Below are positions 46,400-62,670 of a stretch of DNA of 64,000 nucleotides, piece after piece; position 1 is the stretch's first letter; each line of letters opens with the position of its first letter. The notes under the pieces were generated by a model, which had not been told where the DNA came from, made no database searches, and was given only the letters and a program-made list of their open reading frames with translations. The stretch is taken from positions 310,001-374,000 of the forward strand of contig NZ_CP039393.1 in the NCBI RefSeq assembly GCF_004803695.1, given 5' to 3'. The stretch is from Muribaculum gordoncarteri. GTDB lineage: Bacteria > Bacteroidota > Bacteroidia > Bacteroidales > Muribaculaceae. Position numbers and translations under genes: made by a program.

Positions 46400-48949
46400 A
46401 TGAAGTTAATTAAAAGTCTTATCGCGTCGGCTTTTATGGCAATGTCGGTGACGGGTTTCGCTATCGACAATGTCGGAATCACTACGACATCATTGTCGCC
46501 CGACCGATTTACATTGATACAGGATGGCAGGTCGCTGCCTGTATATGTTGATGACGCCGACGATTCAGGAGTAAAAATTGCTGTACGTAACCTTGCAGCC
46601 GACTTCGGTCGAGTAACGGGGCGTGACGCAGTGCTTGCCGCTGCTCCGTCGGAATCGCGCATGATTATAGTTGGAACTCTCGATTCTCCTGTCATGCAGC
46701 GCATCGCAAAAGCGGGGAAGATAGATGCATCACAACTTAAAGGAAAGTATGAGAAATATTTGATGTCGACAGTGCAGTCGCCTCTGCCAGGAGTCGATGA
46801 GGCTCTTGTGATTGCGGGTAGTGACCGTCGAGGAGCAATATATGGCGTATACGAGCTTTCGGAGCAGATAGGTGTGTCGCCTTGGTATGACTGGGCTGAT
46901 GTTCCTGTTGTTCATAACGAAAATATGTCGATGTCACGCGGTACCTACACAGCCGGCGAGCCAGCTGTGAAATATCGCGGCTTGTTCCTTAACGATGAGG
47001 CTCCGTGCCTTACCGGATGGGTGAAGAATACCTACGGAACCGATTACGGTGACCATCGTTTCTATGCACGCGTGTTTGAACTCATATTGCGTCTTCGCGG
47101 TAATATGATGTGGCCGGCCATGTGGGGCTGGGCTTTCTATGCCGATGATCCTGAAAACAGCAAGACCGCCGATGAAATGGGCGTGGTTATGGGAACATCA
47201 CATCATGAACCCATGGCTCGCAACCATCAGGAGTGGGCGCGTCATCGCAAAGAATACGGTGCATGGAATTATGATACCAACCAAGAGGTGATAGACCGCT
47301 TCTTTGTTGAGGGAATCGAGCGAGCCAAGAACACCGAGGACATCGTGACTATAGGTATGCGTGGCGACGGTGACGAAGCCATGAGCGCCGAGGCCGATGT
47401 GAAGTTGCTTAAGAAAATCATAGACAATCAGCGCAAAATCATAAGCAAGGTAACGCACAAGAAAGCGTCGGCCACTCCGCAGGTGTGGGCTTTATATAAA
47501 GAGGTGCTTGAATATTACGAAAAGGGATTGCGTGCCCCCGATGATGTGATATATCTTTTGTGTGACGATAACTGGGGCAATGTGCGTCGTCTTCCCAATG
47601 CCGAGGAGCGTAAGCATCCGGGCGGATGGGGAATGTATTACCATGTCGACTATGTGGGTGCTCCCCGTAACTCGAAGTGGCTTAACGTGACTCCTATACA
47701 GAATATGTGGGAGCAGCTTAGCCTGACTTATAAATATGGTGTCGACAAGCTTTGGGTTCTCAACGTGGGCGACCTTAAGCCGATGGAGTATCCTATAACG
47801 TTGTTTATGGACATAGCATGGAGGCCTGAAAAATATTCAGCACATAATCTGCTTGAACATACTTTGGAATTCTGCTGTCAGCAATTCGGTGAAGCACAGG
47901 CTCCCGAAGCTGCCCGTATATTGAATCTCTACAGCAAATATAACGGACGAGTGACTGCCGAGATGCTTGATCGCCGCACCTATAACCTTAACACCGGCGA
48001 GTGGCGCAAGGTAGCCGACGAATATGTGCGTCTTGAGGCCGAGGCTATGCGACAGTACATGACGCTTGAACCGCAATATCGTGACGCATACAAGCAATTG
48101 ATACTTTTCCCCGTTCAGGCCATGTCAAATATCTATGAAATGTATTATGCCCAGGCGATGAACCTGAAGCTCTTTGAGGAAGGCAATCCCGAGGCCAATA
48201 TGTGGGCCGACAAGGTGGAGCGTTGCTTCAACCGTGACGCAGAACTCATGCGCGACTACAACGAGGTAATGGCCGATGGTAAATGGAATGGAATGATGAC
48301 GCAGAAGCACATAGGCTATCGTAGTTGGAACGACAACTTCAGAGCCGATACAATGCCCATGGTAAAACGCATCGACAATCCCGATGATTGCAAGGGCGGT
48401 TATGTGTTCACTCCCTCCAACGGATTTGTGAGCATGGAAGCCGAGCATTACTATTCGCTGACCGAACCGACAAGCGATGCACGCTGGACGGTGATTCCCT
48501 ACATGGGCCGCACACTTAGCGGAATTTCGGTAATGCCTCCCACCGAGCAGGTCGACGGAGCATCGCTCACCTATCGCATGACACTGCCCGACACCGTAAC
48601 CAATGTGACTGTACGTGTCATCGTGAAGTCGACACTTGATTTCCTTGACAAGGGCGGACTTTGCTACACGGTGGCTCTTGATGGAGGTGACGCACAGTCG
48701 ATAAACTTCAACAGCAATCTCAACGAGAATCCCGAAAACATTTACAGCGTGTTCTATCCCACCGTTGCCGGACGCGTAGTGGAGAAGAGCGTTACGCTGC
48801 CTGTAAAGAAGGGCGCCAAATATCATGACTTGGTGGTTGCTCCTTCAGATCCGGGAATCGTATTCGAGAAAATAGTCGTTGACTTTGGCGGATACATACC
48901 TTCATTCCTGTTTATGGATGAGTCGTCATGCTCACGTAATTCAAAATAA
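46400..48949 (+). CDS. GH115 xylan alpha-1,2-glucuronidase
   Basis: An 849-residue exported enzyme (signal peptide MKLIKSLIASAFMAMSVTGFA) of glycoside hydrolase family 115, which removes (4-O-methyl-)glucuronic acid from glucuronoxylan. Recognisable blocks are an N-terminal glycosidase-associated domain (RGAIYGVYELSEQIGVSPWYDW), the barrel segments KYRGLFLNDEAPCLTGW, LRLRGNMMWPAMWGWAFY and GTSHHEPMARNHQEW, and VIYLLCDDNWGNVRRLP. A C-terminal beta domain follows. The family call is confident; residue-level catalysis is not assigned. First gene of a five-gene operon that then imports and breaks down the released uronic acid. Confidence 0.92.
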   Translation: MKLIKSLIASAFMAMSVTGFAIDNVGITTTSLSPDRFTLIQDGRSLPVYVDDADDSGVKIAVRNLAADFGRVTGRDAVLAAAPSESRMIIVGTLDSPVMQRIAKAGKIDASQLKGKYEKYLMSTVQSPLPGVDEALVIAGSDRRGAIYGVYELSEQIGVSPWYDWADVPVVHNENMSMSRGTYTAGEPAVKYRGLFLNDEAPCLTGWVKNTYGTDYGDHRFYARVFELILRLRGNMMWPAMWGWAFYADDPENSKTADEMGVVMGTSHHEPMARNHQEWARHRKEYGAWNYDTNQEVIDRFFVEGIERAKNTEDIVTIGMRGDGDEAMSAEADVKLLKKIIDNQRKIISKVTHKKASATPQVWALYKEVLEYYEKGLRAPDDVIYLLCDDNWGNVRRLPNAEERKHPGGWGMYYHVDYVGAPRNSKWLNVTPIQNMWEQLSLTYKYGVDKLWVLNVGDLKPMEYPITLFMDIAWRPEKYSAHNLLEHTLEFCCQQFGEAQAPEAARILNLYSKYNGRVTAEMLDRRTYNLNTGEWRKVADEYVRLEAEAMRQYMTLEPQYRDAYKQLILFPVQAMSNIYEMYYAQAMNLKLFEEGNPEANMWADKVERCFNRDAELMRDYNEVMADGKWNGMMTQKHIGYRSWNDNFRADTMPMVKRIDNPDDCKGGYVFTPSNGFVSMEAEHYYSLTEPTSDARWTVIPYMGRTLSGISVMPPTEQVDGASLTYRMTLPDTVTNVTVRVIVKSTLDFLDKGGLCYTVALDGGDAQSINFNSNLNENPENIYSVFYPTVAGRVVEKSVTLPVKKGAKYHDLVVAPSDPGIVFEKIVVDFGGYIPSFLFMDESSCSRNSK

Positions 48950-48967
48950 CCTCATAACATAAGTATC

Positions 48968-50452
48968 ATGAATAATATACAAGCTACAAGCGGCAAGATG
49001 ACAAATTACCGTTGGGTTATTTGTACGATGCTGTTTTTCGCATTGGTCATCAACTATCTCGACCGTCAGGTGCTGTCGTTGACTTGGGTCAATTTCATAG
49101 CTCCCGAGTTTAACTGGGGCCCCGACGATTACGGATTGATAACCGGATGCTTCTCACTCGTTTATGCCGTGGGAATGTTATTTGTAGGCAAGTTTATCGA
49201 CTACATAGGCACTCGCCGCGGTTATATGTGGGCGATAGGAATATGGTCGTTCGGCGCTTGCCTTCACGCCTTCTGTGGTGTGCTCACCAACGGCATAGTG
49301 TCAGGCGACTGGATTCTGTCGTTCACGGGAGCACGCGAGCACTTGATGGAGCTGCAGTCGGTGGCCAATGTGTCGATGATGATAACCACAGTGAGTGTGT
49401 GGCTGTTTCTTGTGGCACGTTGCGTACTGTCGGTGGGAGAGAGCGGAAACTTCCCTTGCTCGATCAAGGCTGTCGCCGAGTATTTTCCCAAGAAGGATCG
49501 CGGATTTGCTACAGGTGTGTTCAATTCGGGCTCACAGATAGGTGCATTGCTCGCCCCGTTCACCATACCCTTGATAGCCCGTCACTACGGATGGGAGATG
49601 GCGTTCCTGCTCATCGGAGCCCTGGGCTTCGTGTGGATGGGCGTGTGGGTGTTTGTTTACAAGGAGCCGCGCAAGAATCCCCGTGTCAATGAGGCCGAGC
49701 TTGCATATATCGAACAGGACGGCATAGGCGAGGACAATCCCGAGTGTGACGCTTCGTCGAAATGCAGCGAGCCTGAGGTGGGAGTGTTCCAGGCGTTTAC
49801 TTTCCGCCAGACATGGGCGGTGATTTTCGGCCGTTTCCTTCCCGACTCGGTGTGGTGGTTCCTGCTGTTCTGGGCCCCTGCATTCATCAGCAATGTCTAC
49901 GGTTATCCCACCGATTCAACTGAGGGAATGCTCGCCATATTCACCATCTACCTTATTTCGATGCTTTCGTTGGGCGGCAGTTATTTGCCTACGTTCTTCA
50001 TCAACCGCAATCGTGTCAATCCTTACAAGGGTCGCATGCGCGCCATGCTGATATTCGCACTGTTCCCGCTGCTCGGAATGCTTGTGATGCCTCTCGGCCA
50101 GATGTCGATGTGGTATCCGGTAGTCATAATAGGCATAATGGCCGCCGCTCATCAGAGCTGGAGTGCCAATGTCTACAATGTGGTCAGCGACATGTTCCCG
50201 AAATCGGTTGTCGCTACGGTGACGGGTGCTGCGGGTCTTGCCAGCGGTCTTGGAAGCTTCACATCCAACTATGGTGCCGGAAAGCTTTTCAAGTACGCTA
50301 CCGATACCGACATGCAGTTCCTTGGCTTTTCGGGTGAGAATGCCGGTTACATGATCGTGTTCCTGATTGCGTCGGTAGCCTATCTCGTAAGCTGGATTGT
50401 GATGAAGGTGCTTGTACCCCGCTATAAGCTTGTGGAGTTAAAAAAGAAATAG
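48968..50452 (+). CDS. MFS hexuronate transporter (ExuT-like)
   Basis: A 494-residue major facilitator of the anion:cation symporter type. NYLDRQVLSLTWVNFIAPEF in TM1 and GESGNFPCSIKAVAEYFPKKDRG between TM4 and TM5 are typical of ExuT/GudP-like proteins. About 12 hydrophobic segments are visible. A long loop between TM2 and TM4 (about residues 100-145) is larger than in E. coli ExuT. It would carry glucuronate or galacturonate across the inner membrane. Lies 18 bp after the GH115 gene and 26 bp before uxaC. Confidence 0.88.
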   Translation: MNNIQATSGKMTNYRWVICTMLFFALVINYLDRQVLSLTWVNFIAPEFNWGPDDYGLITGCFSLVYAVGMLFVGKFIDYIGTRRGYMWAIGIWSFGACLHAFCGVLTNGIVSGDWILSFTGAREHLMELQSVANVSMMITTVSVWLFLVARCVLSVGESGNFPCSIKAVAEYFPKKDRGFATGVFNSGSQIGALLAPFTIPLIARHYGWEMAFLLIGALGFVWMGVWVFVYKEPRKNPRVNEAELAYIEQDGIGEDNPECDASSKCSEPEVGVFQAFTFRQTWAVIFGRFLPDSVWWFLLFWAPAFISNVYGYPTDSTEGMLAIFTIYLISMLSLGGSYLPTFFINRNRVNPYKGRMRAMLIFALFPLLGMLVMPLGQMSMWYPVVIIGIMAAAHQSWSANVYNVVSDMFPKSVVATVTGAAGLASGLGSFTSNYGAGKLFKYATDTDMQFLGFSGENAGYMIVFLIASVAYLVSWIVMKVLVPRYKLVELKKK

Positions 50453-50478
50453 ATAAACCAAAAATAAATTCATAGGCA

Positions 50479-51891
50479 ATGAATTCAAAAATCCCATTTA
50501 TGAATCCCGACTTCATGCTCCAGAACGACACCGCCAAGCGGCTCTACCGCGAGCATGCTGCCAATATGCCCATAATCGACTATCACTGCCACCTGTCGCC
50601 CAAAATGATAGCCGAGGACCATCGATTCTCGACAATTACCGAGCTGTGGCTTGGCGGCGACCACTACAAGTGGCGTGCGATGCGCACCAACGGTGTCGAC
50701 GAGCGTTACATAACAGGTGACGCAAGCGACTGGGAGAAGTTTGAGAAATGGGCCGAAACCGTGTCCTACGTTATGCGTAATCCGCTCTATCACTGGAGTC
50801 ACATGGAACTGCGGACCGCATTCGGCATTACCGACACGCTGAATGCACAGTCGGCTCGCCGAATCTACGATATATGTAACGAGAAGCTCGCCGGACCCGG
50901 CATGACCGCCCGCGGCCTCATGGAGCATTACAATGTAGAGGTGGTGTGTACGACCGACGACCCTGTGGATACTCTCGAATACCACAAGGCGATAGGGGAG
51001 AGCGGGTTCAAGGTCAAGGTATATCCGGCATGGCGTCCCGACAAGGCCATGGCCGTGACCGACCCTGAGGCTTATTGCGCCTACATCGCGACGCTTGGCA
51101 AGGCTGCCGATGTCGACATAACTTCTTACGCCGACCTGATGAAGGCACTGCGTGTGCGTCACGACTTCTTTGCTTCGCAGGGTTGTCGCATCGCCGATCA
51201 CGGAGTGTCACAGTTCCCGTGGGCCGAGTGCAGCGAGGCTGAGGCTTCGGCATTGTTTGACAAGGTTATGAGCGGACAGATGCTTGCCTCCGACGAGGTA
51301 ATCAAGCTGCAGACATCGATATTGCTCGACCTTTGTCGCATGAACCATGAGAAGGATTGGGTGCAGCAGTTCCACTTCGGAGCTATGCGTAACGTTAATA
51401 CACGAATGTTCCGCAAGCTGGGACCCGACACCGGTTTCGACACGATAGGCAGCTACAACTGCACGGAAGCTGTAGCACGCTTTCTCGATGCGCTCGACCG
51501 TGACAATTGTCTTGCAAAGAGCATCCTCTATAATCTGAATCCGAGCGATAACGTTTGGCTGGCAGCCATGATTGGTAATTTCCAGGACGGTTCGGTGCCG
51601 GGAAAAATCCAGATGGGTTCGGCCTGGTGGTTCAACGACAACCGTTTCGGCATGGAAGCGCAGCTCAATGCACTGTCGATGCAGAGCCTTCTGAGCCGGT
51701 TTGTGGGTATGTTGACCGACTCCCGCTCATTTGTGTCATATCCGCGTCACGATTATTTCCGCCGCATCGTGTGCACGCTGATAGGGCGTGACATCGAGGA
51801 GGGCAAGATTCCGGTGAGCGAGCTTACACGAATAGAGAAGATGGTTGAGGATATAAGCTATTATAACGCTAAGTCATATTTTAAATTTTAA
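50479..51891 (+). CDS. uxaC: Glucuronate (uronate) isomerase
   Basis: A 470-residue cytoplasmic isomerase converting D-glucuronate to D-fructuronate and D-galacturonate to D-tagaturonate. Family motifs are IIDYHCHLSPKMIAED near residue 27 (metal histidines), LWLGGDHYKWRAMRTNGV near 55, VVCTTDDPVDTLEYH near 158 and SAWWFNDNRFGMEAQLNAL near 383. Length is normal for UxaC. It works between the transporter and the SDR/UxuA steps encoded in the same operon. Confidence 0.95.
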   Translation: MNSKIPFMNPDFMLQNDTAKRLYREHAANMPIIDYHCHLSPKMIAEDHRFSTITELWLGGDHYKWRAMRTNGVDERYITGDASDWEKFEKWAETVSYVMRNPLYHWSHMELRTAFGITDTLNAQSARRIYDICNEKLAGPGMTARGLMEHYNVEVVCTTDDPVDTLEYHKAIGESGFKVKVYPAWRPDKAMAVTDPEAYCAYIATLGKAADVDITSYADLMKALRVRHDFFASQGCRIADHGVSQFPWAECSEAEASALFDKVMSGQMLASDEVIKLQTSILLDLCRMNHEKDWVQQFHFGAMRNVNTRMFRKLGPDTGFDTIGSYNCTEAVARFLDALDRDNCLAKSILYNLNPSDNVWLAAMIGNFQDGSVPGKIQMGSAWWFNDNRFGMEAQLNALSMQSLLSRFVGMLTDSRSFVSYPRHDYFRRIVCTLIGRDIEEGKIPVSELTRIEKMVEDISYYNAKSYFKF

Positions 51892-51897
51892 ATCGAT

Positions 51898-53079
51898 ATG
51901 GAGAAAACTTGGAGATGGTTTGGCCCTAAGGATAAGATAACGCTTGACATGTTGCGCCAGATAGGCGTAGAGGGCATCGTGACATCGCTGCATCACATAG
52001 CCAACGGCGAGGTGTGGAGCCTCGACGAGGTTAACAAGATGAAGGAGTACATCGAGAGTCACGGACTGCGCTGGTCGGTTGTTGAAAGTCTGCCGGTGAG
52101 CGAATCCATAAAATACGGCGGCCCCGACCGCGATAAGCTGATTGAGAACTACAAGGAGAGCCTGCGCAATCTCGGTAAGGCCGGTGTGAAGACGATATGC
52201 TACAACTTCATGCCCGTACTCGACTGGGCGCGTACCGACCTTGAGTATCCCAACGGTGACGGCACATCCAACCTATATTTCAACAAAGCTGAATTTGCCT
52301 ACTTCGACATATACATCCTGAAGCGCGAGAATGCCGAGAAGGATTATGATGCCGTGACACTGTCGCGTGTCGAGGACCTTCGTCCCGTGATGACGCCCGA
52401 TGCCGAGCATCGTCTTGTGGAGAACATCATCGTAAAGACTCAGGGATTTGTCAACGGCAACATAAGCGAGGATGACGAGGCGCCTGTGGCAACTTTCAGA
52501 GAGCTCCTCAAGCTGTATGAGGGAATCGATCGTGATGCGTTACGTGCCAACATGAAGTACTTCCTGGAAGCTATCATGCCGGTGTGCAACGAATATGACA
52601 TCAACATGTGCGTGCATCCCGACGATCCTCCGTTGCAGATACTCGGACTTCCGCGCATAGTGACTTGCGACGATGACATAAAGTGGTTTCTTGATGCCGT
52701 TCCCGACAAGCATAACGGCTTGACATTCTGCTCGGGCTCACTGAGCGCAGGAGCTCATAACAACGTTCCCGAGCTTGCCCGCAAATATGCCGACCGCACA
52801 TGGTTTGTGCATCTGCGCAGCACATCGGTGCTCCCCAACGGCGATTTCCGCGAGGCTCCGCATCTCGGCGGCCGTGCCGACATAATCGAGCTTGTGAGAA
52901 TATTCGAGAAGACCAATCCCGAGCTTCCCATGCGCGTTGACCACGCTCCGCTGATGCTTGGCGACGAGAAGATGGGCTATAATGCCGGATACTCGTTCCA
53001 TGGACGAATGTTGGCTCTCGGACAGGTCGGGGGTGTTATCGCAACAGTCGACCGTGACATTAAAGAAGGTAAAATATAA
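51898..53079 (+). CDS. uxuA: Mannonate dehydratase
   Basis: A 393-residue enzyme converting D-mannonate to 2-keto-3-deoxygluconate. The N-terminus MEKTWRWFGPKDKITLDMLR and the metal-site segments NMCVHPDDPPLQILGLPR, TFCSGSLSAGAHNNVPEL, FVHLRSTSVLPNGDF and RVDHAPLM mark UxuA of the TIM-barrel type. It starts 6 bp after uxaC and ends 17 bp before the SDR gene. 2-Keto-3-deoxygluconate kinase and aldolase genes are not in this window. Confidence 0.95.
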   Translation: MEKTWRWFGPKDKITLDMLRQIGVEGIVTSLHHIANGEVWSLDEVNKMKEYIESHGLRWSVVESLPVSESIKYGGPDRDKLIENYKESLRNLGKAGVKTICYNFMPVLDWARTDLEYPNGDGTSNLYFNKAEFAYFDIYILKRENAEKDYDAVTLSRVEDLRPVMTPDAEHRLVENIIVKTQGFVNGNISEDDEAPVATFRELLKLYEGIDRDALRANMKYFLEAIMPVCNEYDINMCVHPDDPPLQILGLPRIVTCDDDIKWFLDAVPDKHNGLTFCSGSLSAGAHNNVPELARKYADRTWFVHLRSTSVLPNGDFREAPHLGGRADIIELVRIFEKTNPELPMRVDHAPLMLGDEKMGYNAGYSFHGRMLALGQVGGVIATVDRDIKEGKI

Positions 53080-53096
53080 AAAAATACGACATAAAT

Positions 53097-53909
53097 ATGA
53101 ACGAATTGTTTTCAGTAAAGGACCGCGTGGTGGTAATCACCGGTGGAACCGGCGTGTTGGGCGCCTGCATAGGCGAATACCTTGCAAAGCAGGGCGCTAA
53201 AGTGGTGCTGATGGGCCGCCGTAAGGAAGAGGGCGACCGCATAGTCGATAAAATACGCGCCGAAGGCGGCGAGGCAATGTTCCTTGTAACGGATGTAATG
53301 AATCCCGAGGTAGTGCAGAAGAACTGCGACGACATCATGGCTGCCTACGGTCGTGTCGACGCGCTGCTGAATGCAGCCGGAGGCAACATTCCCGGCGCAA
53401 CTATCGCTCCCACGGGCACAATATTCGACATAAAGGTCGAGGAGTTCCAGAAGGTGCTTAATGTAAATCTTACAGGAACTGTAATCCCCACTCAGATATT
53501 CCTTAAGCCGATGGTTGAGTCCGGTTGCGGCGCAATAGTCAACTTCTCGTCAATGGCCGCATTCCGTCCTATGACACGTGTGCTCGGATATGCTGCAGCC
53601 AAAGCCGGTATAAGCAACTTCACCGCATTCCTTGCCAACGAAGTGGCTACAAAATTCACTCCGTCGATACGAGTAAACGCGATTGCACCTGGATTTTTCC
53701 TTACCAATCAGAACCGTGCGCTACTCACCAACCCCGACGGCTCGTTGACCGAGCGCGGTGCCGATGTCATCCGTCAGACTCCGTTCAAGCGTTTCGGAAA
53801 GCCCGAAGAGCTTTGCGGTACGATTCAGTATCTGATAAGTGACGCTGCATCATTCGTAACCGGAACCGTGGCCGTGGTCGACGGCGGTTTCAACGCTTTT
53901 GCGATGTAA
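53097..53909 (+). CDS. SDR-family D-mannonate oxidoreductase (fructuronate reductase)
   Basis: A 270-residue short-chain dehydrogenase. The Rossmann motif TGGTGVLGACIG lies near residue 17, NAAGGN near residue 93, and the catalytic Tyr165/Lys169 in YAAAKAG. Its place in the operon after uxaC and uxuA fills the missing step, fructuronate plus NADH to mannonate, done in E. coli by the unrelated UxuB. Function is inferred from context and from similar SDR genes in other Bacteroidota; substrate specificity cannot be read from the motif set. Confidence 0.82.
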   Translation: MNELFSVKDRVVVITGGTGVLGACIGEYLAKQGAKVVLMGRRKEEGDRIVDKIRAEGGEAMFLVTDVMNPEVVQKNCDDIMAAYGRVDALLNAAGGNIPGATIAPTGTIFDIKVEEFQKVLNVNLTGTVIPTQIFLKPMVESGCGAIVNFSSMAAFRPMTRVLGYAAAKAGISNFTAFLANEVATKFTPSIRVNAIAPGFFLTNQNRALLTNPDGSLTERGADVIRQTPFKRFGKPEELCGTIQYLISDAASFVTGTVAVVDGGFNAFAM

Positions 53910-53987: not shown

Positions 53988-55367
53988 TCAGTGCAAAAAT
54001 TGCCAAGATTTGAAATTGAACAGCTCGCCGTCGTCACCTCGGAACAGGATGAGCAGGTCGTGTACACCTGCGGCCTTTCCTTTGACTTGTGACTTGAGCT
54101 GACCCTTGCTGTCGGGGGCGATTTCGATTTTCGCGATGGGACGACCTTCGAGATTGTCAAGGTAGAATTCGACAGTGCCGTTACGTTGCGCATCGCTCAC
54201 CTCTACCGTTACAGCCGAAGGAACATTGTTGCCGAAGTCGACCGAACGCACCTTAAGCCAGTCGCCGTTGTTGATGGAGGTGAGGTAGTGGTTGTCCTTT
54301 CCGGCGTTACGGTCGGTCTTAAGACCGTAGCTTTCAGCCATTGTGGGGGCCGATACCTTCTGATAGGGGTCGAAGTTGCGCAGAGGCTTCGTAACGCCCT
54401 CTTTGGTGAACGGGATGAAAGGAATCTTGTCGCCGTTCCAGTTAAACTCCTCGATCGATGTCGAGCGACGGAATCCTCCGCCGTTGGGAAGAAGTCCGTC
54501 ATGATAGAACATGAAGTTGCGGCCGCCGATTTCGATGCTTCCGCCATGTATGGTGAAGCTGCCTTTTGCTTCGTCCATTATGCGGCCCTGGTATTTCCAC
54601 GGGCCGTTTATGCTTGATGAGGTGGAGTAGGCCATGTGTTCGGGAACGCCTCCGGCTGCATATACAATATAATATATGCCGTTGCGCTTGAACACCCACG
54701 GGCCTTCCTCATAACCTGTCTTCATTTTGCGTTTTCCGGCCTGATAATCCATTTTCATTACCTTCGGTCCGAAACATTCGGGATCATCGAGTCCGCTCAC
54801 CGGCATAACTTCGCTTCCGAGCGATATCATGTCACGGTTTAGCTTGGCATACCACAATCCGTTGTTGCCCCAGAATATATAGGCCTGTCCGTCATCGTCG
54901 ATAAATACCGAGGGGTCGATGTAGCCGAAGCCTCCGGCGACGAGCGGCTTACCGAGCGGGTCGATGTAGGGGCCTTCGGGAGTGTCGGATACTCCGACTC
55001 CTATTCCGTGAAGGTGGACTGTGGTGTCCTCGGCGCAGATGTACCAATACCACTTTCCGTCACGCTCGATGGCTTGCGACGCCCACGCGTTGTCGCCCTG
55101 CTTGGCCCACTTGAATGTGGCTGTGGACATCGGGGTTCCTTCGTAGGTCCAGTTAAGCATGTCGGTAGAGGTGTAGAGCTGCCAATCCTTCATCTTGAAA
55201 TATTGGGCATCGTCCTCGTCATGGTCTACAAAGAGGTAGACTGTGTCGTTGTGCACGTAGGGTGCAGGGTCGGGAGTGTAGGAGGTCTGTATGACCGGAT
55301 TATTCGCCATTGACATTGAAGTCACGGCAGCCATCGCAGCGACGGCGAGCATCTTGTTGAGATTCAT
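53988..55367 (-). CDS. GH43 glycosidase with CBM6 (beta-xylosidase/arabinofuranosidase type), exported
   Basis: A 459-residue enzyme with a signal peptide (MNLNKMLAVAAMAAVTSMSMA). The five-bladed beta-propeller has the GH43 triad: base Asp in SYTPDPAPYVHNDTVYLF, pKa-tuning Asp in YIDPSVFIDDDGQAYIFWG and acid Glu in GYEEGPWVFKRNGIYYIVY. The C-terminal 130 residues look like a CBM6 (AESYGLKTDRNAGKDNHYL, then NNGDWLKVRSVDFG). It probably removes arabinose or xylose from xylan fragments. Start taken at ATG 55367; the longer frame begins inside the -7 box. The only minus-strand gene of the locus; its promoter carries the shared GTTAC operator. Confidence 0.9.
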   Translation of the reverse strand: MNLNKMLAVAAMAAVTSMSMANNPVIQTSYTPDPAPYVHNDTVYLFVDHDEDDAQYFKMKDWQLYTSTDMLNWTYEGTPMSTATFKWAKQGDNAWASQAIERDGKWYWYICAEDTTVHLHGIGVGVSDTPEGPYIDPLGKPLVAGGFGYIDPSVFIDDDGQAYIFWGNNGLWYAKLNRDMISLGSEVMPVSGLDDPECFGPKVMKMDYQAGKRKMKTGYEEGPWVFKRNGIYYIVYAAGGVPEHMAYSTSSSINGPWKYQGRIMDEAKGSFTIHGGSIEIGGRNFMFYHDGLLPNGGGFRRSTSIEEFNWNGDKIPFIPFTKEGVTKPLRNFDPYQKVSAPTMAESYGLKTDRNAGKDNHYLTSINNGDWLKVRSVDFGNNVPSAVTVEVSDAQRNGTVEFYLDNLEGRPIAKIEIAPDSKGQLKSQVKGKAAGVHDLLILFRGDDGELFNFKSWQFLH

Positions 55368-55397
55368 CGGGTGTTTATTAAGGTTAATTAACTGAAA

Positions 55398-55405
55398 CAA
55401 AGATA
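55398..55405 (-). promoter_or_regulatory. -7 box TATCTTTG of the minus-strand GH43 gene
   Basis: Minus-strand TATCTTTG (55405 to 55398), 30 bp before the ATG. No -33 TTTG is present, as expected for an activator-dependent promoter. Confidence 0.65.
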
Positions 55406-55436: not shown

Positions 55437-55462
55437 GTAACGTAAATCTTTGTTTATGTTAC
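55437..55462 (-). promoter_or_regulatory. GTAAC-N16-GTTAC operator, minus-strand GH43 gene
   Basis: Read on the minus strand, GTAAC (55462 to 55458) is followed 21 bp later by GTTAC (55441 to 55437). The second half-site starts exactly 36 bp upstream of the first base of the -7 box, the same register as at the two plus-strand GH43 promoters. The flanking CAACGTAACATA is also found at 57582-57593. The 145 bp between this and the next operator (55463-55607) show nothing else recognisable. Confidence 0.7.
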
Positions 55463-55607
55463 GTTGGGTAGATTAATGTGCCAATCATAGCGGATAATTG
55501 TGTTGGCGATAGTGGATAAATAAATCAGTTGGGGTGGTGAAATGAATTTATGACAGTAAAATCACGCTTTAATAAATGGCTGTATTGTAATTTATTAAGT
55601 ATGCGGA

Positions 55608-55675
55608 GTTACGTGATAAGAGAAATTTGTTACAATGCTTTTGCATGAGGTTACATAGGGAAAGATATGTGTATC
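55608..55675 (+). promoter_or_regulatory. Triple GTTAC 21-bp operator, first plus-strand GH43 gene
   Basis: GTTAC occurs at 55608, 55629 and 55650, exactly 21 bp apart, with a degenerate fourth step GTATC at 55671. The fourth step begins 36 bp before the -7 box. Direct repeats two helical turns apart are typical of AraC-type DNA-binding domains, including the output domain of hybrid two-component regulators that control Bacteroidota glycan loci. Confidence 0.7.
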
Positions 55676-55706
55676 ATCATAGTTTTGGAGTGTTGTGAGC
55701 GGTCAT

Positions 55707-55714
55707 TAATTTTG
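55707..55714 (+). promoter_or_regulatory. -7 box TAATTTTG of the first plus-strand GH43 gene
   Basis: TAATTTTG fits TAnnTTTG, 33 bp before the ATG; a TTTG at 55684-55687 lies 19 bp upstream and could be the -33 element. Confidence 0.65.
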
Positions 55715-55747
55715 CGGTACAATTTAAACCATAATTAACACGTTGTA

Positions 55748-57376
55748 ATGCGAAAGCTACTTATTAACTTAACATTCCTTTTATTCGCCGCAACAATCAC
55801 AAGCAGTGCCGCCGTAGTCGCTGACAAGTCGACATTTGCCAACCCCATGTTGTGGGCCGATGTTCCTGACCCCGATGTAATCAGGGTAGGTGATGATTTT
55901 TATATGGTCAGCACAACGATGCATCTTATGCCCGGCTGTCCTATAATGCGTTCCAAGGATTTGGTAAATTGGGAAGTAATCAGTTATGTGTTTGATACGC
56001 TTGACGATAATTCACGCTATCGCCTTATCGACGGAAATGTTTACGGACGCGGCCAATGGGCTACTTCGCTGAAGTATCATAACGGACGCTTCTATGTGCT
56101 TTTCTCGCCTAACGACCAGCCCTATCGCTCCTATATATATAGTACAGCCGATCCCACCGGAAAGTGGGAACTCGTGAGCCGTACTCCGCACTTCCATGAC
56201 TCTTCGCTTTTGTTTGACGACGACGGAAGGGTATATGTTTACTCGGGAACTGGTAACCTTCGCGAGCTCAACCCCGACTTGAGCGATGTCAAGGAGGGTG
56301 GCGTGGACATGGTGATATTTGAACGTGACTCCACCGAAACCGGATTGCTCGAAGGCAGCCGTGCGTTGAAGCTTAACGGCAAATATTATCTGCTTATGAT
56401 TTCGTGGCCCAACGGAAAGCCCCGCCGTCAGGTGTGCTACCGTGCCGACAAAATCACAGGCCCCTACGAGAAGAAGGTGATTCTTCAGTCGGAATTCGGC
56501 GGATTCCCCTATGCCGGCCAAGGTACCATCGTAGATGACGCCAAGGGCAACTGGTGGGGAGTGATATTCCAGGACCGCGGAGGTGTGGGTCGTGTGCTCA
56601 CCTTGATGCCGTGCCGCTGGATCGACGGTTGGCCTATCCTCGGCGATGAGAACGGAAAGATTCCCGCCGTTATGGAGCGCCCCGTGGCAGGATGCCCCGA
56701 CAAGAAGATTGTGACAAGCGATGACTTCGATTCCGACAAGCTCAATATAAACTGGCAGTGGAACCATTGTCCCGTCAATGAAGCATGGTCGCTCACCGAC
56801 CGTCCGGGACATCTGCGTCTGACCACCTCGCGCGTTGTCGACAATCTCTATAACGCACCCAACACCATAAGCCAGCGAATGGAGGGTCCCGAATGTAACG
56901 GCGCGGTGAAGATAGATGTGTCGCACATGAAGGACGGTGACGTTGCCGGATTCGGAGCTTTCAACGGACACTCGGGTCTTCTCTCGATTGAAAAGAACAA
57001 CGGCAAGACCGAGCTGGTGATGCACACCAATGTCGTGAAGATGGAGCGTCGCACCAAGAATGTGCTCGGTGTCGACAATGAGGAGATTCAGCGCGTGGCT
57101 CTGAACTCACCGGTAGTGATGCTGCGAATAAACGCCGATTTTCGTCCGGGTCGTGACATTGCCCGCTTTGCCTACAGCACCGACGGCAAGTCGTGGAATG
57201 AAATAGGCCGTGACTTCAAGATGCGATTCGATTACCAGCGACTCTTCATGGGAACCCGATTTGCCATCTACAACTACGCTACACGCGAAAAAGGCGGATA
57301 TGTCGATGTGGATTATTTCAACTACGAGCGACTGTCCGATGATGCACATTCAATGTCTAAAATTGATACAAAATAG
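55748..57376 (+). CDS. GH43 glycosidase with C-terminal beta-sandwich (xylosidase type), exported
   Basis: A 542-residue enzyme with a signal peptide (about residues 1-22). The GH43 propeller fills residues 30-320: base Asp in WADVPDPDVIRVGDDFYMVS, second Asp in HDSSLLFDDDGRVYVYSG and acid Glu in GLLEGSRALKLNGKYYLLM. A second beta-sandwich (about 330-530, from DDFDSDKLNINWQWNH) matches the GH43 C-terminal domain found in XynB-like and subfamily-12-like enzymes. Probably acts on xylan-derived oligosaccharides. Followed by a terminator. The GH43 family is sure; the subfamily is a judgement. Confidence 0.9.
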   Translation: MRKLLINLTFLLFAATITSSAAVVADKSTFANPMLWADVPDPDVIRVGDDFYMVSTTMHLMPGCPIMRSKDLVNWEVISYVFDTLDDNSRYRLIDGNVYGRGQWATSLKYHNGRFYVLFSPNDQPYRSYIYSTADPTGKWELVSRTPHFHDSSLLFDDDGRVYVYSGTGNLRELNPDLSDVKEGGVDMVIFERDSTETGLLEGSRALKLNGKYYLLMISWPNGKPRRQVCYRADKITGPYEKKVILQSEFGGFPYAGQGTIVDDAKGNWWGVIFQDRGGVGRVLTLMPCRWIDGWPILGDENGKIPAVMERPVAGCPDKKIVTSDDFDSDKLNINWQWNHCPVNEAWSLTDRPGHLRLTTSRVVDNLYNAPNTISQRMEGPECNGAVKIDVSHMKDGDVAGFGAFNGHSGLLSIEKNNGKTELVMHTNVVKMERRTKNVLGVDNEEIQRVALNSPVVMLRINADFRPGRDIARFAYSTDGKSWNEIGRDFKMRFDYQRLFMGTRFAIYNYATREKGGYVDVDYFNYERLSDDAHSMSKIDTK

Positions 57377-57448
57377 TAACCTATGGTAAAAAAGATAATT
57401 CGATTTAGTTTTGGGTAATACTAATGGCACACACATGTTTGGTAGTGA

Positions 57449-57472
57449 GGGGTTGCCGTCCTCGGCAACCCC
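57449..57472 (+). terminator. Terminator after the first plus-strand GH43 gene
   Basis: A perfect 10-bp stem GGGGTTGCCG / CGGCAACCCC with a 4-nt loop, followed by ATTCATTACTTTTT, 72 bp after the stop. Confidence 0.7.
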
Positions 57473-57514
57473 ATTCATTACTTTTTAGTTAAAGTGCTGT
57501 AGGCCAGATGTGGT

Positions 57515-57582
57515 GTTACGTGAGCAAAGAAGTCTGTTACAAAACGGAAGTGCGATGTAACGTGCGTGTAGAAAAATGAAAC
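57515..57582 (+). promoter_or_regulatory. GTTAC-type 21-bp operator, second plus-strand GH43 gene
   Basis: GTTAC at 57515 and 57536, GTAAC at 57557 and GAAAC at 57578, each exactly 21 bp apart; the last starts 36 bp before the -7 box. The first 28 bp (57515-57542) match 55608-55635 at 23 positions, including GTTACGTGA at the start and GTTACAA at the end. Confidence 0.7.
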
Positions 57583-57613
57583 AACGTAACATATCTGTTA
57601 ACACTCATATATC

Positions 57614-57621
57614 TAAATTTG
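57614..57621 (+). promoter_or_regulatory. -7 box TAAATTTG of the second plus-strand GH43 gene
   Basis: TAAATTTG fits TAnnTTTG, 45 bp before the ATG at 57667. No -33 TTTG at the expected place. Confidence 0.65.
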
Positions 57622-59535: not shown

Positions 59536-62500
59536 ATGGAAAATGTAAAGAAAATATTTCGATGCATTTCGTTTCTCCTACTCTTCATCGCAGGGACTGC
59601 TTCAGTCTATGCCGATACGGTAAGAGGAACTGTGGTAGACGATACAGGCGAACCTTTGATAGGTGCCACAATCGCTCTAAAAGGCGGTAGCGCAGCTACA
59701 GCCTCCGACATTGACGGCAACTACTCGTTGCAAGTGCCCGACCTCAAGACGGCTGTCTTGAAAGTATCTTATGTAGGATATTTACCTCAGGAAATCAAGG
59801 TTAACGGACGCTCAACTGTAGATGTCACTCTTCAAACCAACGCCGAACAGCTCGAAGAAGTCGTTGTGGTTGGTTACGGTCAGCAGAAGAAAGCCTCAGT
59901 TGTGGGTGCAATCACTCAGACAACAGGTGAAGTCCTCGAACGTGCTGCCGGTATTCATGACATCAGTGCTGCTCTTACCGGTAACCTCCCCGGCGTTGTT
60001 ACAATGCAGAGCTCGGGTATGCCCGGTGAAGAAAGCGCTAAGATCACCATTCGTGGTGCCAGCTCTTGGAACAACAGCGACCCCCTCGTGCTCGTCGACG
60101 GTATCGAGCGTGACATGAACAGTGTCGATGTAGGTTCTGTAAAATCAATCTCAGTTCTTAAGGATGCATCGGCAACCGCCGTTTACGGTGTGAAGGGTGC
60201 CAATGGTGTTATCCTTATCACCACCAAGCGTGGTGAAGAGGGACGCGCCAAAATCGATGTTAGCTTCACCGCTACATTGAAGTCGGCTTCAAAGCTCCCT
60301 AACAAGTTTGACTCTTTCGATGCTCTTGCAGCTCGTAACAAGGCCGTTGTTCACGAACTCGGTCTTATGCCCAGCTCTTGGAGCTACATGACTCCTTATG
60401 AAACATTGTTGAAGTACCGCAACCCCGCCAACCTCGAAGAGTTTGAGCGTTACCCCAACGTTGACTGGCAGGACTACCTGTTCAAGGATTACGCAATGGC
60501 TTACAACGGTGCGGTTTCTATCAGTGGTGGTACTCGCTTCGTGAAGTACTTCGCCGCTATCGACTTTGTCCATGAAGGTGACCTTTTCCGCAACTTCGAC
60601 AACCATCGCGGTTACGAAACAGGTTTCGGTTACAATCGTATCAACGCCCGTTCTAACCTCGACTTCCAGCTCACTAAGACTACTGTTTTCAAGGTGAACT
60701 TGTCAGGTTCTAACGGTCAGAAGCGTTCTACTTGGCCTAACGACGGTTCAGGCTTCAACCAGAGCAACTGGAACGACGTTCAGGTATGGGCAGGTGCCTA
60801 CAACATTGCACCTAACGTGTTCCGTCCCGTTTACGCCGACGGTTCCTACGGTTACTACCCCGCATTCTCGTCGCAGGTTACCAACTCTGCCGACCTTCTT
60901 GCCAACGGTGGTGCCTTCAAGACAACTGCAACCCGCATCAACACTGACTTCGTTCTCGAGCAGAACCTCGACTTCATCACCAAGGGCTTGAACTTCCGCG
61001 GTATGATTTCTTGGGACAACCAGTTCCGTGAACAAGGTCGTGGTGTATCCGACCTCTACAACGGTCCCCAGTACAAGTGGATCGACCCCGCTACCGGTGC
61101 CGTTACAAAGAAGAACCCCACTGAAACTACAAGCCAGTTTGACTACCTCCCCGGTTCAAAGTGGTCGACTCAGGCAGGTAGCGTTTCCGACGGCAACACT
61201 CTTCGTAACCTCAACTATCAGCTCCAGCTCAACTGGAACCGCGAGTTTGGCGTTCACAATGTAGGCTTGACCGGTGTTTGGACCCGTCAGGAAACAGCTG
61301 TCGGTTCAATGATACCTATGTATCGTGAGGACTGGGTGTTCCGTGCAACCTACAACTTCGCCGACCGTTACTTCGTTGAGTACAACGGTGCTTACAACGG
61401 TTCCGAGAAGTTCAAGAAGGGCAAGCGTTTCGGTTTCTTCAACTCAGGCGCTATCGGTTGGCGTGTTTCTCAGGAAAAGTTCTGGGAAGGCCTCCGCGAC
61501 TGGTGGGAAGAACTTAAGATTCGTGCATCTTACGGTGAAATCGGTGACGACTCGGGTGGCCGTTATCTCTACATGGACGAGTGGGGCACAGGTGGTAACA
61601 CCTCTATGGACATCACCGGCTATGACAACCGTTCAATGTACACATTCTACTACCTCTCTAAGCTCGGTAACCCCGATGCAGGTTGGGAAAAGGTTAAGAA
61701 GTTCAACCTCGGTATCGACTATGCATTCCTCAACAACATGTTTGCAGGTTCAGTCGAAATATTCAAGGACAAGCGTGACGGCATCTTGATTAACGGTAAC
61801 GACCGTGCGATGCCCTCTTACTTCGGTCAGACTCCTCCCACCGCCAACCTCGGTAAGGCTGAGTCAAAGGGTTTTGAAGTTGAAGTTCGCTTCTCTAAGA
61901 ACATCAACCGCAACATGCGTGTATGGGCTAACTTGAGCATGACTCATGCTGCCAACAAGATTATCGACCGTGACGACCCCGCACTCAAGCCCGCTTACCA
62001 GAAGCAGGCCGGATATGTGATCGGTCAGACTCACTCTTATCTTGACAAGGGATTCCTCAACTCGTTTGACGACATCTACGGTAGTCCCTCTCATGATGTG
62101 AACGACGCTTCACGCCTCCCCGGCGACTACTATATCGTCGACTTCAACGGTGACGGTGTCGTTGACAACAAGGACTCTGTTCCCTACGGATATTCAGGCA
62201 CTCCCCAGAACACCTACAACGCCACTATCGGCTTTGAGTGGAAGGGATTCAGCTGCTTCGCTCAGTTCTACGGCGTTACCAACGTTACTCGTGAGGTTAG
62301 CCTCGTAAGCTTCGGCAACCACATCGACAACGTTTACAACATCGGTGACTGGTGGAGCGGTGAAACCGGTACAGGCGACATCCTGATACCTCGTTGGTAC
62401 TCTACCGTCAGCGGTTACTCCAATGGTACACAGTATCTCTATGACGGTTCTTACATCCGTCTTAAGAACGTGGAACTTGCTTATACTTTCACCAACGGAT

Positions 62501-62670
62501 GGATTAAGAAACTCGGTCTTTCCTACATGAAGCTCTACCTCAACGGTAACAACCTTTGGGTATGGTCACGTATGCCCGACGACCGTGAATCAAACTTCTC
62601 CGGAGGTTCAGGCTCTGGTGCTTATCCTACCATGCGTCGTTTCAACTTTGGTGTTAGGTTCAGTCTATAA
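59536..62670 (+). CDS. SusC-type TonB-dependent outer-membrane transporter
   Basis: A 1044-residue glycan importer. A signal peptide (about 1-26) precedes a carboxypeptidase-regulatory-like domain (VRGTVVDDTGEPLIGATIAL) and the SusC signature LEEVVVVGYGQQKKASVVGA near residue 106. The plug domain ends with AVYGVKGANGVILITTKRG, followed by a 22-strand-type barrel ending in an aromatic-rich C-terminus (RFNFGVRFSL). It pairs with the SusD lipoprotein encoded 16 bp downstream to import xylan oligosaccharides. No consensus -7 box in the 147-bp gap before it, so it may be transcribed from the GH43 promoter. Confidence 0.93.
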   Translation: MENVKKIFRCISFLLLFIAGTASVYADTVRGTVVDDTGEPLIGATIALKGGSAATASDIDGNYSLQVPDLKTAVLKVSYVGYLPQEIKVNGRSTVDVTLQTNAEQLEEVVVVGYGQQKKASVVGAITQTTGEVLERAAGIHDISAALTGNLPGVVTMQSSGMPGEESAKITIRGASSWNNSDPLVLVDGIERDMNSVDVGSVKSISVLKDASATAVYGVKGANGVILITTKRGEEGRAKIDVSFTATLKSASKLPNKFDSFDALAARNKAVVHELGLMPSSWSYMTPYETLLKYRNPANLEEFERYPNVDWQDYLFKDYAMAYNGAVSISGGTRFVKYFAAIDFVHEGDLFRNFDNHRGYETGFGYNRINARSNLDFQLTKTTVFKVNLSGSNGQKRSTWPNDGSGFNQSNWNDVQVWAGAYNIAPNVFRPVYADGSYGYYPAFSSQVTNSADLLANGGAFKTTATRINTDFVLEQNLDFITKGLNFRGMISWDNQFREQGRGVSDLYNGPQYKWIDPATGAVTKKNPTETTSQFDYLPGSKWSTQAGSVSDGNTLRNLNYQLQLNWNREFGVHNVGLTGVWTRQETAVGSMIPMYREDWVFRATYNFADRYFVEYNGAYNGSEKFKKGKRFGFFNSGAIGWRVSQEKFWEGLRDWWEELKIRASYGEIGDDSGGRYLYMDEWGTGGNTSMDITGYDNRSMYTFYYLSKLGNPDAGWEKVKKFNLGIDYAFLNNMFAGSVEIFKDKRDGILINGNDRAMPSYFGQTPPTANLGKAESKGFEVEVRFSKNINRNMRVWANLSMTHAANKIIDRDDPALKPAYQKQAGYVIGQTHSYLDKGFLNSFDDIYGSPSHDVNDASRLPGDYYIVDFNGDGVVDNKDSVPYGYSGTPQNTYNATIGFEWKGFSCFAQFYGVTNVTREVSLVSFGNHIDNVYNIGDWWSGETGTGDILIPRWYSTVSGYSNGTQYLYDGSYIRLKNVELAYTFTNGWIKKLGLSYMKLYLNGNNLWVWSRMPDDRESNFSGGSGSGAYPTMRRFNFGVRFSL

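Follow-up and report, generated by a model that had tools for sequence, protein, structure and literature searches.

Phased half-sites at three GH43 promoters

We analyzed a 64,000-nucleotide window of the Muribaculum gordoncarteri chromosome (C1:310001-374000 of the 3.43-Mb genome). The window holds two plus-strand GH43 genes with GH43_C2 domains and a minus-strand GH43-CBM6 gene, whose promoters (P1, P2, and P3, respectively) carry GTTAC or near variants at exact 21-base-pair (bp) steps upstream of a TAnnTTTG box. At P1, GTTAC at 55608, 55629, and 55650 is followed by GTATC at 55671. P2 has GTTAC at 57515 and 57536, GTAAC at 57557, and GAAAC at 57578, and P3 has GTAAC from 55462 and GTTAC from 55441 on the minus strand. 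A sequence-only reading of the window had given these positions and those of the boxes (Table 1), and all of them were correct. The distance of 36 bp that it gave from the last step to the box holds at P1, P2, and P3, but as a universal value it had to be widened to 36 or 37 bp over the 21 promoters described below.

Matches to GTTAC-N16-GTTAC with up to two mismatches numbered 78 in the window against 41.45 +/- 6.60 in shuffled sequence, and 0 of 100 shuffles reached 78. Three of the 78 are exact, and all three lie at P1 or P2. Pairs of GTWAC at 21 bp on both strands numbered 10 (5 distinct), whereas 200 Markov simulations gave a mean of 0.34 and a maximum of 4. Triples at 21-bp steps numbered 4 (2 distinct) in the window and 0 in all 200 simulations. 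The recurrent, promoter-phased GTTAC ladder at P1-P3 is real, and it is wider than the sequence-only reading said.

The cluster past P2 encodes SusC, SusD, a second SusC/SusD pair, a BT_3987-like/DUF5627 protein, GH10, GH3, an esterase, and GH43-GH8, a gene content from which xylan would be the target. Judging from gene order, the GH43 gene downstream of P2 perhaps opens an operon with the SusC/SusD and GH10 genes. For the GH43-CBM6 gene downstream of P3, a later ATG start (MNLNKMLAV) is more likely than the listed TTG.

The double unit, its register, and its regulon

The repeating unit is a 26-bp double site, GTTAC-N6-AAAGA-N5-GTTAC, with the consensus GTTACATnnnCAAAGAnATnTGTTAC over 28 units. 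P1 and P2 each carry two copies 42 bp apart, and P3 carries one. AAAGA follows the first and third half-sites and is missing after the second and fourth, which show GTTAC alone. In the first half-site of each pair, AAAGA starts 11 bp after the start of GTTAC. An AraC-type domain reads two successive major grooves with one domain, and the 11-bp offset is compatible with a single such domain reading both boxes. Because the core TGTWACA is its own reverse complement, the orientation of each site was judged from AAAGA and the register.

The register was counted in 21 promoters from five genomes, comprising all matrix matches of at least 15 bits with opposite-strand readings of one site merged; matches of 12-15 bits were left out. 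The box TAnnTTTG is the -7 element (PMC7366714), here that of the Bacteroidota primary sigma factor (sigma-ABfr). An exact box lies 57 bp (9 promoters) or 58 bp (9 promoters) from the start of the proximal unit in 18 of the 21, and the remaining three have a box with one mismatch at 57 or 58 bp. Over the 1848 other positions of these promoters, the exact box occurs once. TTTG near -33, read by eye and uncounted, is present at P1 and not clear at P2-P4. At four of the 21 promoters (P6, H3, I2, and J4), the proximal unit was set 42 bp past the scored unit with the box position known beforehand. A held-out test was free of this choice. In that test, a matrix made from the five window sites was run on 357 kb of held-out regions (13 of 14, with the own cluster omitted), which had been picked by motif or regulator and not by box. 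Boxes were found at 57, 58, 99, or 100 bp in 18 of the 25 top matches and at none of 90 other offsets, and six scrambled and one reversed control matrices gave 0-1 in-phase boxes and 0-3 at other offsets.

The double unit is found at seven promoters of the own genome, which lie in four separate chromosomal places, and six of these promoters precede glycan-enzyme genes of known family (Table 1). A composite pattern with up to three mismatches matched five places, all upstream of glycan-enzyme operons, and the reversed pattern matched none. A site model, scoring 150 candidates per genome (150 of 1237 in the own genome), gave eight places at an expectation value (E) below 0.03, all at the seven promoters, with the ninth at E=0.755; the sites from which it was built include own-genome matches that were later counted. 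The bare GTTAC-N16-GTTAC was dropped as a genome search pattern. It is too short for this use, because 12 of its 18 exact matches fall in long open frames; the other 6 are intergenic, all of them in the seven promoters.

The match of P7 was first read as a chance occurrence before fmt. This was overturned, as on the minus strand it is a full in-register site before a gene for a 690-residue protein (L035:14125-16197, minus), for which no Pfam or NCBIfam family matched at E<=1e-6. Its relative carries the operator site inside the clusters of the genomes G012 and G010, and the G012 relative is 68% identical over the 183 residues compared. Since the G012 relative lies inside a cluster with the same operator, the 690-residue protein is a candidate new hemicellulose enzyme.

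The likeness among the promoters might be a functionless relic of GH43 gene duplication, as P1 and P2 precede GH43 genes of equal domain make-up and their distal sites have extra letters in common. This is contradicted by the unrelated genes downstream of the sites (GH97, GH31, GH35-like, SusC, and esterase). The sites also occur on both strands and in other families, and the letters between half-sites differ among promoters. We regard such a relic as extremely improbable.

Table 1. Operator sites, -7 boxes, and genes; positions are those of the window unless given on C1.
Feature	Position	Strand	Basis or context
P1 distal double site GTTACGTGATAAGAGAAATTTGTTAC	55608..55633	+	pattern scan, site model
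P1 proximal double site GTTACATAGGGAAAGATATGTGTATC, 42 bp past the distal one	55650..55675	+	matrix, site model
P1 -7 box TAATTTTG	55707..55714	+	57 bp from proximal-site start
P2 distal double site GTTACGTGAGCAAAGAAGTCTGTTAC	57515..57540	+	pattern scan, site model
P2 proximal double site GTAACGTGCGTGTAGAAAAATGAAAC	57557..57582	+	matrix; weak (20.7 bits), absent from site-model matches
P2 -7 box TAAATTTG	57614..57621	+	57 bp from proximal-site start
P3 single double site GTAACATAAACAAAGATTTACGTTAC	55437..55462	-	matrix, site model
P3 -7 box TATCTTTG	55398..55405	-	57 bp from site start
GH43 gene with GH43_C2, downstream of P1	55748..57376	+	Pfam PF04616, PF17851
GH43 gene with GH43_C2, downstream of P2	57655..59388	+	
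SusC-like TonB-dependent transporter	59536..62670	+	
GH43-CBM6 gene, downstream of P3, listed start TTG	53988..55400	-	Pfam PF04616, PF03422
P4	C1:393265		before GH97-GH43-GH43-GH95
P5	C1:107231		before GH31 gene
P6	C1:1029456	-	before GH35-like/DUF5597 gene, esterase, MFS transporter, GH10, GH43
P7	C1:1744272	-	before 690-residue gene
Consecutive genes for GH115, MFS transporter, UxaC (glucuronate isomerase), UxuA (mannonate dehydratase), and short-chain dehydrogenase	46400-53909		

The gene row at 46400-53909 represents much of a glucuronate side-chain route. After the GH31 gene of P5 lies a GH115-like open frame of 423 residues (L033:12191-13462, C1 ~110191-111462). It looks truncated, as only later parts of the family were matched (profile 248-335 and the C domain).

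The hybrid regulator and its homologues

The hybrid two-component regulator with an AraC-type C-terminal domain that the sequence-only reading had expected for this locus is encoded in the same gene cluster. Its gene (C1:401059-405078, minus strand) lies near the far end of the cluster, ~27 kb past the window, and is grouped with susC/susD and glycan-enzyme genes. The protein (P0001, 1339 residues) combines Reg_prop, HisKA, HATPase_c, Response_reg, and a C-terminal HTH_18 domain in one chain. At residue 1155, its receiver has NHIP instead of the published contact motif S/CHIP, which may alter how tightly the DNA-binding part is held.

Among 14 genomes of the genus, including the own one, a close orthologue (51-52% identity over near full length) is present in G002, G004, G010, and G012, and the best regulator match in the nine others is at most 35% identical. 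The motif and the close orthologue coincide in the same 5 of the 14 genomes, and the other 9 have neither; the first pattern found the motif in 4, and a pattern refined on relatives added G004. The chance of such a 5/5 vs 0/9 co-occurrence would be 1 in 2002 for independent genomes, which these are not. All 25 site-model matches at E<0.2 over the 14 genomes fall in the five orthologue-bearing ones, and six weaker matches (E 0.23-0.76) come from five genomes, of which three lack the orthologue. The half-sites are kept in orthologous promoters across the genus relatives, and the composite pattern, the held-out matrix, and the site model each show that the pattern is not equally common at unrelated promoters; on both points the sequence-only reading was borne out. 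A contig scan with the motif returned five stretches from three genomes, all genus members (own-genome records were possibly omitted). The motif with AAAGA was not found beyond the genus in 233 further genomes of the family. Two of these (G110 and G117) gave matches that were rejected as noise, because the reversed pattern matches 7 of the same 233 genomes.

The site, its register, the regulon, its co-occurrence with the regulator, and, as described below, its closeness to the regulator gene in other families are demonstrated by sequence. From these we consider it highly probable that sites of the P1-P3 type are operator-promoters of a hemicellulose (xylan) regulon, and that the predicted regulator binding them is most likely the hybrid two-component protein of the same cluster. 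This supports the sequence-only reading, which had proposed a xylan-responsive activator on up to four half-sites. Some other protein may instead bind a real operator, for example a stand-alone AraC-type activator or another hybrid regulator, with the neighboring regulator merely co-occurring. The AraC-type HTH_18 family has 12 matches in the own genome, and co-occurrence inside one genus may stem from shared ancestry. Around four other hybrid-regulator genes of the own genome, the matches above 12 bits are limited to P7 (11 kb from the nearest hybrid regulator), a coding match of 14.5 bits, and a 12.5-bit match without a box. This argues against another binder, as do the other-family sites near the homologous regulator gene and the way the motif tracks the conserved first recognition helix of the hybrid regulator, and we regard another binder as improbable.

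A side observation concerns one further hybrid gene (C1:1729842-1733579). About 4.5 kb from it, at C1 ~1738121 (L152:14121, +), TTTGTCACT is repeated at 21 bp, and the last copy ends ~30 bp before TACTTTTG. The repeat may be the paralogue's own operator, set in a similar register.

An order-wide search with two candidates scored per genome found 16 regulator homologues, 37-47% identical, in 14 genomes of other families (E<=1e-250, 295 genomes of the order). Their 16 loci form the distant set, and two genus loci with 38% homologues extend it to 18. Of the 20 top matrix matches at the 16 loci, 11 fall in the zone within 300 bp of either end of the regulator gene, which makes up ~3.4% of the sequence. 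An in-phase box accompanies 12 of the 20, and 93 other offsets give 3 boxes. The corresponding counts for six control matrices are 0-3 near the gene, 0-1 in phase, and 0-2 at other offsets. Counted with no matrix, the most frequent position of GTWAC ahead of a -7 box is 57 bp in both distant-locus sets, with counts of 8 and 7 vs means of 1.01 and 0.63 per offset. At the 18 loci, two-rung ladders with a box at 36 or 37 bp numbered 18 (3 of them in the two genus loci), against 7 over 22 other distances; four-rung ladders numbered 6 against 0. By lag, 18 ladders were found at 21 bp and 1 over fifteen other lags together. At least one ladder is present at 11 of the 18 loci, including 9 of the 16 in other families. 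Genes after the distant sites include GH43, SusC-like, MFS sugar transporter, and GH115 genes. By eye, the second box in most of the best distant sites is AAAA-like and not AAAGA. G265 and G346 each have an in-register site directly ahead of the regulator gene (G265:C63:23058 and G346:C55:27730), which suggests self-regulation there, unlike in the own genome.

These counts also bear on whether the repeats are a general promoter feature, produced by helical phasing or A/T tracts, and no operator. At 20 other hybrid-regulator loci, a lag of 21 is also enriched ahead of the -7 boxes, with 67 identical 5-mers vs 4-29 at eight other lags, as a general feature would give; those loci share the lag and have no common distance to the box. 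The window's housekeeping part shows no lag-21 excess, a count from 14 boxes only. Five control cores gave 0, 0, 0, 0, and 2 ladders at 36/37 bp vs 18 for the true core, the ladder is largely absent at promoters unrelated to glycan use, and all 25 model matches at E<0.2 lie in the orthologue genomes. We therefore regard a general promoter feature as highly improbable.

The recognition helices were assigned from the family fold and not from a computed structure. The presumed first helix, ISRVHLHRKLKELTN, is identical at 12-15 of 15 positions in 22 aligned clade members, the own one included, whereas eight other hybrid regulators keep 5-9 of 15. The presumed second helix, RNPNNFATSFKELFG, is kept at 8-12 of 15 positions in the four genus orthologues and at 5-11 of 15 in 17 others. 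The kept first helix parallels the kept GTTAC, and the drifting second helix appears to parallel the drifting second box. The first helix is 15/15 in G316, a locus without a ladder, and its conservation at such ladder-less loci speaks against a strict helix-motif correspondence.

Proposed mechanism, known systems, and implications

Several observations weigh against the operator-promoter reading. The box-anchored ladder was not found at 7 of the 18 distant loci, and the two best sites of the distant set, both in G445, have no exact box. The matrix and the site model were built from sites that were then counted in the genus, with the held-out test excepted. Weak model matches (E 0.23-0.57) occur in three orthologue-less genomes with 150 candidates scored per genome. 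In the own genome, the 922 bp upstream of the regulator gene contain no matrix match above 12 bits. The GH115-MFS-UxaC-UxuA operon likewise has none, so that the xylan genes are not all covered, and this operon is probably under other control. Xylan as the signal is presumed from gene content.

The following mechanism is proposed for the operator-promoters and the hybrid regulator. The sensor part would detect a xylan oligosaccharide, and phosphorylation would free the AraC-type domain of the regulator, as reported for relatives, in which phosphorylation relieves the inhibition of the DNA-binding part (PMC11253607). A dimer would bind GTTAC-N6-AAAGA-N5-GTTAC as a 21-bp direct repeat. In the AraC-type domain, the first helix-turn-helix would recognize GTTAC and the second AAAGA. 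The second copy at P1 and P2, 42 bp away, would take up another dimer on the same face of the DNA. The last half-site starts 36-37 bp ahead of TAnnTTTG and would extend into the -33 region, so that the regulator would touch RNA polymerase directly. In this way it would activate a promoter whose -33 element is poor, in the manner of AraC.

The hybrid regulator might also bind the sites and repress, or both repress and activate. BT0366 of B. thetaiotaomicron binds positive and negative targets (PMC3404733), and a weak match of 14.4 bits (C1:393329) touches the end of the P4 -7 box. Against this, the whole of the counted unit precedes the box in each of the 21 promoters, which is the position of a class II activator. 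Repression, alone or combined with activation, is quite improbable in our assessment.

The sequence-only reading took the 21-bp direct-repeat design from AraC-type activators; for hybrid two-component regulators, it had been published in 2013. B. thetaiotaomicron alone has 36 such regulators, and the operators predicted for 16 of them consist of directly repeated sites, on average 21 bp apart (Ravcheev et al., 2013, PMC3878776). The present sites resemble these operators in their direct repeats of ~21 bp, their position upstream of polysaccharide genes, the hybrid regulator gene nearby, and some distant members. They differ in having GTTAC and AAAGA boxes, two to four half-sites, and a 36-37 bp register, whereas the operators of PMC3878776 have two sites each, and its passages on them give no fixed distance to the -7 box and name no xylan regulator. 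In Bacteroides xylanisolvens, expression of two separate loci requires a single hybrid regulator, BXY_29350: a main xylan cluster, in which susC/D occur in tandem, and a distant cluster that contains GH67, GH10, GH2, and a sugar transporter (PMC4855328). The present motif similarly joins a main cluster of tandem SusC/SusD and GH10 to a distant GH10/transporter operon (P6). The passages of PMC4855328 on BXY_29350 give no operator sequence, and the likeness is one of regulon layout.

In AraC I1-I2 with class II activation, direct-repeat half-sites also lie 21 bp apart, each with two boxes about one helical turn apart, and the last reaches -35. The present operator differs in its sigma factor and -7 box, in the fusion to a hybrid kinase, and in the doubled site.

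The GTTAC motif with its regulon, the doubled unit, the register of 36/37 bp, and the paired conservation of helix and box across families appear new. We found none of them described in the open-access literature searched, the supplement alignments of PMC3878776 aside, which may contain a GTTAC motif for B. thetaiotaomicron.

Without the operator, the distant genes switched on by a glycan cannot be predicted. A motif, a register, and a matching regulator are now proposed for a xylan system in Muribaculaceae, and the 36/37-bp register could aid in finding the operators of related regulators. The kept helix and kept box, set against the drifting helix and drifting box, offer a testable basis for a code by which the family reads DNA. 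We tentatively suggest, at somewhat less than even confidence, a clade of Bacteroidales glycan regulators that use a phase-locked ladder, whose two, three, or four half-sites follow one another at exactly 21 bp and whose end lies 36-37 bp ahead of the -7 box. One or two dimers would stack on one DNA face against RNA polymerase, with the number of rungs setting the output; the kept first helix would fix GTTAC, and the drifting second helix would set the second box. If this is true, the drifting second helix and second box would keep paralogous regulators insulated from one another.

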